Origin: Prochlorococcus sp. AG-402-O21
Lineage (GTDB): Bacteria > Cyanobacteriota > Cyanobacteriia > PCC-6307 > Cyanobiaceae
Reading direction: 5' to 3'
Assembly (NCBI GenBank): GCA_003216375.1
Contig: QCIZ01000007.1
Location: forward strand, 1 to 64,000
Length of the DNA: 64,000 bases
A program made the translations under genes and the position numbers. Below the pieces are notes generated by a model. It did no database searches. It was not told the origin of the DNA and worked only from the letters and a program-made list of their open reading frames with translations. Below, in pieces: positions 21,810-58,464 of this stretch. The first letter of the stretch is position 1, and each line of letters opens with the position of its first letter.

Positions 21810-21985
21810 AACTTTTCTTTCGGAGTACACAACTACTCTGTCCTAAATTAATTTAGTTAGGGATGAGGCATACCGTAGAAACTGATTCGGTAAATACAAC
21901 TCACTTCGGTTGCTACTACTGAAAAGTTAGGTATACCGACCTCTAAAATTTTTCACAAAGCGTCTCTTGAAAGAGATACAAACTA

Positions 21986-23890: not shown

Positions 23891-24255
23891 TCAGGCCACC
23901 TCTGGACACCAACCAATCTCTTTCACTTGTTGCCGCATATAAAGAAGACAACGTGAAATCAAATGGTCTCCATGAGGAATAAGACGACGATGAACATGAC
24001 ACGAAAGAATTGTTCTGCAATGCTTGTCGCTGGAATAATTGAGATATTGACATGTCACGCAAACGCAAGCTGAACATGTTTTTTTGAGAATCGCTTTCTC
24101 AAAGAATTACCACTCTTCTTCTTGACCGAAGATCTGATCGGAGCAAGTTTCTTTGGGGTGAGTCGTAGACATTGACCAATTCCAATAGGTTGGGCTACGG
24201 CAGATACCCATTCTTCAGCCTTAAAGACAGCATACGGAGACGCAGATAAAGTCAT
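23891..24255 (-). pseudogene. Split Cys-rich protein gene, copy 1 (needs -1 frame change)
   Basis: The first frame starts at 24255 (SPYAVFKAEEWVSAVAQPIG, QCLRLTPKK). The second frame ends at 23891 (CQYLNYSSDKHCRTIL, RLIPHGDHL, IGWCPEVA). Both halves match 57764-58128, which has exactly the same total length (365 nt, one short of a multiple of three). In copy 1 the second frame also has a TAA at 24106-24108, so a shift would have to occur after it, for example at the A7 run 24079-24085. Either a pseudogene or a recoded gene. Confidence 0.65.
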
Positions 24256-24454
24256 TTACCTTTAGCAGTACACATGTACTAGCAAGAATCAATAGGTAAT
24301 GTCAAGTCATATATTTCAAAGCATCTAAAATATGTCGCATGCAATACCAACAATCGAACAAACATGATGCTCAAACACGATGAATATTTCAAGGATATAA
24401 AGGCTAATTAAAAATAATTAAACGGATAGGTCCACCACAAAACAAAAAAGCAAT

Positions 24455-24697
24455 AAAAAAAGCCCTCATCTCATGAGGGCAAAATAAACTGCTGAAGGAT
24501 CCCCATCACCCAGCTTTTTAAAAATAATAATCAAATCAATCAGATTAGGCAACATTAAAGCACCATATGTTTTATCTCGGGCTTAAATGAACACTATCTA
24601 TAGGGGGGGGGGTTGATTTATACGGGAAATAGGGTTAGAAATAGTATCCCCATCACCCAGACCCGTAGGACACCATACCTAGGGTCTTTTTTATTGG
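24455..24697 (-). ncRNA. Candidate structured RNA, copy 2
   Basis: This is the reverse-strand counterpart of 7846-8091. It starts with the same ~52-bp hairpin block (24646-24697), has the second CTGGGTGATGGGGATC at 24498-24513, and ends in a terminator (GCCCTCATGAGATGAGGGC plus T-run, 24455-24480). The middle differs and carries a G10 run at 24603-24612. The rest of 24256-24970 holds nothing I can identify. Confidence 0.55.
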
Positions 24698-57110: not shown

Positions 57111-57141
57111 TGAAACAACCAAGTACATAGGGACTCATATA

Positions 57142-57763: not shown

Positions 57764-58128
57764 CTATGCCGCCTCGGGACACCATCCAATCTTATTCTCG
57801 AGTCGCTGCATCCAACACTGACACTTTGAAGTCAGGTGTTCTCCATGAGGAATAAGACGTTGATGTAGATGACAGGTAAGAATGGTTCTGCAATGCCTGT
57901 CGCAGGAATAATTGAAATGTTGACATGTCATGCAAACGCTAGCTGAACGTGTGTGTTTAAGACTGTCTTCTTCGAGATAGTCCCACTCCTCTGCTGGGTT
58001 GTAACGCTTCTGGGGTAGAACTTTTTGGGTGCGATACGGAGACATTGCCTTAATCCAATAGGTTCTGCTACCACTGAATTCCAATCTGATGCACGAAAAA
58101 CGGCATAGGGTGAGGACGTTGGAGCCAT
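57764..58128 (-). CDS. Split Cys-rich protein gene, copy 2 (two frames, -1 shift)
   Basis: Frame 1 from 58128 reads SPYAVFRASDWNSVVAEPIG, QCLRIAPKK. Frame 2, open from 58084 to 57764, reads NPAEEWDYLEEDSLKHTRSA, VCMTCQHFNYSCDRHCRTIL, RLIPHGEHL and IGWCPEAA. Only a -1 change joins them into ~121 residues, and neither frame has another stop in the needed part. Many Cys and His (CMTC, C..HC, C.LH) suggest a metal-binding domain. Total length, 365 nt, equals that of 23891-24255. Confidence 0.65.
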
Positions 58129-58464
58129 ATGTCTGTAGCAGTACACCTGTACTAGCAAAATTAAGGAGGTGTTGTCAAGTGGTTCTTTAATGGATTAATT
58201 GCTTATGAAATAAACAGTACATATGCGGTGAGATCTAAGTGTCTTTGGTTTCTATTTGGTTAGAGTTGATTAGACGAGTTTTTGGAAAATCACTCCTTAT
58301 TAGAAGGGGAATAATTCTTTTTCTCTAAAAAGATTAGTCACAACAGAAGTAAAAACTTATTTAAAATTTTTAAGTTTTTTATAAATTGGGTATTTCTTTC
58401 AGGTAGTAAAAATCAATGTCTTTAGCGAATCTAGTTATGTCGAAATCTAATCTTTCTCCCAACT
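58129..58464. other. Intergenic region without a supported gene
   Basis: AT-rich, with no protein-like frame. It presumably holds the promoters of the two flanking genes. Confidence 0.5.

Follow-up and report, generated by a model that had tools for sequence, protein, structure and literature searches.

A duplicated, probably SOS-controlled pair of same-strand overlapping genes in Prochlorococcus

We analyzed a 64-kb stretch of a 1.76-Mb Prochlorococcus genome (hereafter the window) and found that two 365-nt blocks within it are very probably duplicates of an SOS-controlled pair of same-strand overlapping genes, and that one duplicate is decaying to its first gene alone. In each block the upstream frame is ORF A (66 aa), which starts at the first base; the second, Cys/His-rich frame is ORF B (93 aa), which lies at -1 to A. 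In the mechanism that we propose, DNA damage would lead to the removal of LexA, and one short-leader mRNA would then be made from each locus. Translation of A would begin at the first AUG and that of B at an internal AUG, and no frameshift would be needed to make B. After duplication of the pair, copy 2 would have retained an open A and a B under strong selection, and copy 1 would have kept A while its B decayed. In the genome as it stands, A is the gene of copy 1, alongside a dying B, and B is the gene of copy 2, with A open.

Results

Two copies of the A/B locus lie on the minus strand

Both blocks are on the minus strand, with copy 1 running from 24255 to 23891 and copy 2 from 58128 to 57764. 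As the original prediction stated, the two copies have a conserved N-terminal frame in common (SPYAVF.A..W...A.PIG..QCLR..PKK), followed by a Cys/His-rich frame at -1. Their resemblance is far above chance and continues upstream across a TTGACA element and a LexA-type box. The features of the two loci are as follows.

58173..58178, minus strand: -35-like TTGACA of copy 2, with equal spacing to the LexA box in both copies
58140..58153, minus strand: LexA box of copy 2, AGTACAGGTGTACT, a perfect match that overlaps the expected -10 region
57928..58128, minus strand: ORF A of copy 2, 66 aa, MAPTSSPYAVFRASDW...HVQLAFA, with its ATG at 58128; none of 23 orthologues has a stop
57764..58045, minus strand: ORF B of copy 2, 93 aa, Cys/His-rich, MSPYRTQKVLPQKR...GWCPEAA, with an internal ATG at 58045, at -1 to A
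24300..24305, minus strand: -35-like TTGACA of copy 1, in common with copy 2
24267..24280, minus strand: LexA box of copy 1, AGTACATGTGTACT, a perfect match
24055..24255, minus strand: ORF A of copy 1, 66 aa, MTLSASPYAVFKAEEW...HVQLAFA, intact here and in 24 of 24 orthologues
23891..24172, minus strand: ORF B of copy 1, a decaying pseudogene of the Cys/His protein, with a neutral B-only part and broken in 14 of 24 orthologues
24107..24109, minus strand: TAA that interrupts ORF B of copy 1, read in the sequence
24079..24085, minus strand: AAAAAAA run of copy 1, present in most copy 1 orthologues and absent from copy 2 orthologues

It had also been claimed that both copies need a frame change. 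This is incorrect for copy 2: its own ATG at 58045 opens a -1 frame that runs uninterrupted to a stop at 57764. In copy 1, B has the equivalent ATG, at 24172, and the frame is broken by the TAA at 24107-24109, not by an indel.

The A/B arrangement is kept across many genera. Of 400 family genomes, 342 had B-frame relatives and 100 had A-frame relatives; this sample includes many fragmentary assemblies, some of them single-cell, in which a few stops may be errors. The window's own genome also has a stand-alone B paralogue without A (L003, contig 31), and a fragment of B (L004) lies beyond the window on contig 7, at 87885-87983.

A LexA-type box sits at the promoter of both copies

The window contains only two perfect matches to AGTACNNNTGTACT, each upstream of one copy. 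When one mismatch was allowed, there were six matches compared to 0.56 expected, the palindromic site being counted on both strands. Among the one-mismatch sites are 21824-21837 and 57122-57135. The box lies 24-25 nt 5' of ORF A, and across the family 101 of 106 loci had a box upstream of A at a near-fixed distance. Like members of the cyanobacterial LexA (SOS) regulon, both loci have a box that fits the consensus AGTACWNWTGTACT (PMC3091678), and the box is located at the predicted promoter. From this arrangement we infer that the A/B loci are regulated by LexA in vivo. The available portions of the literature on the cyanobacterial LexA regulon name neither A nor B; in Synechococcus, genes of unknown function are among those induced by mitomycin, according to one report (PMC3744912).

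Selection maintains each frame

The original prediction proposed an alignment of homologues, scored for synonymous bias, as a check on the split. We assigned orthologues to sets by best query and length and compared parsimony changes on the orthologue trees with a neutral expectation, an approximate measure in which related sequences are not independent. As anticipated, the homologues revealed a split that is old, conserved and selected in both frames, with constraint in the A frame on the 5' side and in the B frame on the 3' side. For copy 2 orthologues (n = 23), the ratio of observed to expected changes in the B-only part was 0.57 for nonsynonymous and 2.38 for synonymous changes, and the A frame was without a stop in all of them. 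For copy 1 orthologues (n = 24), A was constrained both in its unique 5' part (AN 0.52, AS 2.41) and inside the overlap (wA 0.45, p 0.0006). The B-only part of this set evolved neutrally (BN 0.95, BS 1.14), with 14 stop-related changes vs 13.2 expected, and B was broken in 14 of the 24 loci and A in none. In two sets from other genera, the 5' side was strongly constrained in A and the 3' side in B. Collectively, these tests indicate that A and B are each maintained.

We then consider the overlap itself. A-frame stop changes within it numbered 4 compared to 28.9 expected (four sets). Both frames were constrained in set A34 (wA 0.69, p 0.035; wB 0.43, p 1e-6) and in set A5 (wA 0.71, p 0.013; wB 0.76, p 0.041). 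For the pairing with B, constraint on both overlapping frames is family-wide and is weak within the copy 2 orthologues alone. Past nt ~104, the A tail of sets that keep B had wA values of 0.85-0.98, which were not significant, and is merely kept free of stops. B of copy 1 tended to survive where copy 2 was missing, a trend (Fisher p 0.10) based on genome counts made by hand.

ORF B has a conserved start of its own

The ATG of B straddles two codons of A, taking its A from the end of a Gln codon and its TG from the Cys codon that follows (CA/ATG/Y), and B overlaps the last ~38 codons of A. Of the 94 loci with an intact A, about 90 have this ATG, at nt 80 or 83 of A. The Gln codon at this site is CAA in 89 cases and CAG in 2. 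The other Gln codons upstream in A are mostly CAA as well, which makes this bias weak evidence alone, and we used a tree-based count of base changes in its place. In four orthologue sets, no change was counted at the first base of the B ATG, which is silent in A; comparable two-fold sites in the A frame had changed on average 3.25, 4.67, 0.67 and 1.40 times in those sets. At two loci in which B is ruined (L183 and L187), its ATG has been lost too. Stand-alone homologues of B without A (e.g., L003, L083 and L086) begin at an alignable Met, and in the B tree a single branch separates the proteins with A from those without it (support 93/84). The internal ATG is preceded by a weak Shine-Dalgarno sequence at most.

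In one orthologue of copy 2 (L166), an indel has shifted the A frame and B is intact, the pattern expected if B is independent of A.

An unrelated partner overlaps A in Synechococcus

Weak matches to A in Synechococcus led to a LexA-type box at an equal distance and an A-like ORF (MAPSSPYAPFKAEEWM...WIQGDLFQ). At loci L189-L218, from Synechococcus and other Prochlorococcaceae, the LexA box is followed by an A-like ORF that is overlapped at -1 by a DUF1651 gene (PF07864; E 5e-21 for one Prochlorococcaceae member of the pairing). DUF1651 is unrelated to the window's ORF B. In all 17 loci of the Synechococcus set its ATG lies at nt 77 of A, over an A/TG codon junction, and the constrained frame switches at this ATG. 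Both frames of this overlap are constrained: the observed-to-expected ratio was 0.47 for changes that are nonsynonymous in both, 0.94 for those silent in A and changing in the partner, and 2.24 for those changing in A and silent in the partner. The occurrence of A with DUF1651 or alone in Synechococcus argues that the pairing with B is younger, or less widespread, than the A module with its internal -1 start. DUF1651 genes have been reported to be among the host genes that respond to phage infection (PMC5490813).

We also considered whether B of the window is itself a DUF1651 protein and rejected this assignment: B has no PF07864 match, and the Synechococcus-type partner alone matches the family.

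Separate starts are favored over a frameshift

An alternative to independent initiation is a programmed -1 shift that joins the N-terminal part of A to B, most likely at A_AAG at nt ~101-107 or, in copy 1, at A_AAA_AAA at nt 170. Two sets have a feature that this model would explain, in that the constrained frame changes near nt 105 and not at the B ATG, and an A_AAG tetramer, the most shift-prone in E. coli (PMC4066793), is present there. The tetramer is found in most loci, at nt 98-107, without one fixed context. The change near nt 105 reflects a lack of B-frame conservation at B codons 2-8 in these sets, a finding compatible with an overlap or a frameshift alike. The heptamers offer the model less. 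Of the two slip sites put forward originally, the A_AAA_AAA run of copy 1 is real and falls past the TAA, which counts for a shift, but outside the copy 1 orthologues it is not common; the C_TTA_AAC of copy 2 is not a canonical X_XXY_YYZ heptamer. Copy 2 and its orthologues, a few divergent ones excepted, have no canonical heptamer in the A frame, and no heptamer is conserved in place across the loci. Sequences 3' of the candidate sites had no stimulatory fold when compared with shuffles (mean z 0.22, -0.69, -0.96 and -0.05, for structures without pseudoknots).

The biology of the two ORFs also argues against a shift. The B ATG is more conserved than A requires, A is open to its end and outlives B, each ORF occurs alone, and the DUF1651 domain begins at its ATG. 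We found no in-frame A-B fusion among the A loci examined. Furthermore, the B domain of copy 1 is neutral, so that shifting into it would restore no selected sequence. We therefore consider the programmed shift raised by the original prediction improbable. Separate starts are favored by the conservation of the ATG, by an A tail that stays open and by the survival of A and B independently of each other, and both ORFs are likely to be translated from separate AUGs.

Also very unlikely, in our view, is a model in which B is the sole real gene and A acts as a leader or upstream ORF through its translation rather than its product, for example by setting B expression. The A tail, with its little amino-acid constraint where B is kept, is what such a leader would look like, but the N-terminal codons of A are strongly constrained (nonsynonymous changes at 0.48 and synonymous at 2.55 of expectation), and A is retained as a conserved protein at loci that have lost B or in which B is decaying. 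Finally, the proposal that an ancestral gene was broken by a frameshift and then copied, leaving two pseudogenes, draws on the stop in copy 1 B and the further stops gathered by its orthologues but is scarcely credible: it is contradicted by purifying selection on copy 2 B and copy 1 A, by the open A of copy 2 and by an arrangement conserved in many genera, and selection, which keeps each frame in at least one orthologue set, excludes an inherited broken gene.

The A and B proteins

B has five invariant residues (Cys38, Cys41, Cys58, Cys75 and His70), which suggest that the protein probably binds metal. Scans of A and B against Pfam, NCBIfam and PHROGs gave no match above cut-off, the AlphaFold model of B (pLDDT 46.5) was too weak for a structure search, and a search of viral contigs recovered no relative of B. 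Two PDB profile matches of B, to starch synthase 4 (E 0.014, over a C.TC..F motif, and weak) and to a penicillinase repressor (E 0.85), were taken as chance.

ORF A is predicted to be a 66-aa basic protein. It is intact at five loci in which B is ruined (L181, L183 and L186-L188), and A-like ORFs without either partner are present at L149-L156, all of which end near (I/V)QG(D/E)LF and have a LexA-type box upstream. Stand-alone A of Synechococcus keeps SPYAxFxAE(D/E)W and QGDLF. The beta-clamp-binding pentapeptide has the consensus QL[SD]LF, and the C-terminus of Synechococcus A (QGDLF/QEDLF) is close to it. The conserved N-terminal motif and this tail suggest that A may have a role at the replication fork. 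This role is only a lead, since A of the window ends in QLAFA, which does not fit the motif.

A more far-reaching proposal, which we regard as rather unlikely, is that A is an undescribed SOS-induced clamp-binding micro-protein and that its gene is a mobile 5' module, consisting of the LexA box, the A start and the internal ATG. Such a module would capture unrelated -1 genes (DUF1651, the Cys/His protein) under SOS control, and the overlaps would later be resolved by duplication and loss.

Discussion

Our analysis favors a duplicated overlapping gene pair, in which A and B each have their own start and each can exist alone, as same-strand overlapping genes do. In bacteria, long same-strand overlaps for which selection has been shown in both frames are uncommon. 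The A/B locus resembles known cases of overprinting in having two frames that each encode a selected protein, a long overlap and an internal start. It differs from them in that a module with a LexA box, A, is paired with two unrelated partners, B and DUF1651, through the same kind of internal ATG, and in that an A/B duplicate is resolving the overlap by loss of one gene. The DUF1651 genes (PF07864) are like B in overlapping A, in Synechococcus and some other Prochlorococcaceae, whereas B of the window reaches no Pfam family cut-off. With genes that use a programmed -1 frameshift (IS elements and the dnaX type), the locus has in common the -1 offset of its frames and the A_AAG or A7 sequence of some copies; unlike them, it has no conserved heptamer or structure, B has its own start, and the products are found alone.

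The overlap occurs widely among very abundant marine cyanobacteria, lies behind a putative DNA-damage switch, involves two unrelated partners and has one duplicate in decay. These features allow direct tests of how overlapping genes arise and how their overlaps are resolved. What appeared to be a frameshift becomes two proteins, which gene finders may merge or miss.

A 14-mer, TCCCCATCACCCAG, is present twice in the window, at 24500-24513 and 24647-24660, about 150 bases apart, and a run of ten G (24603-24612) lies between the two sites.
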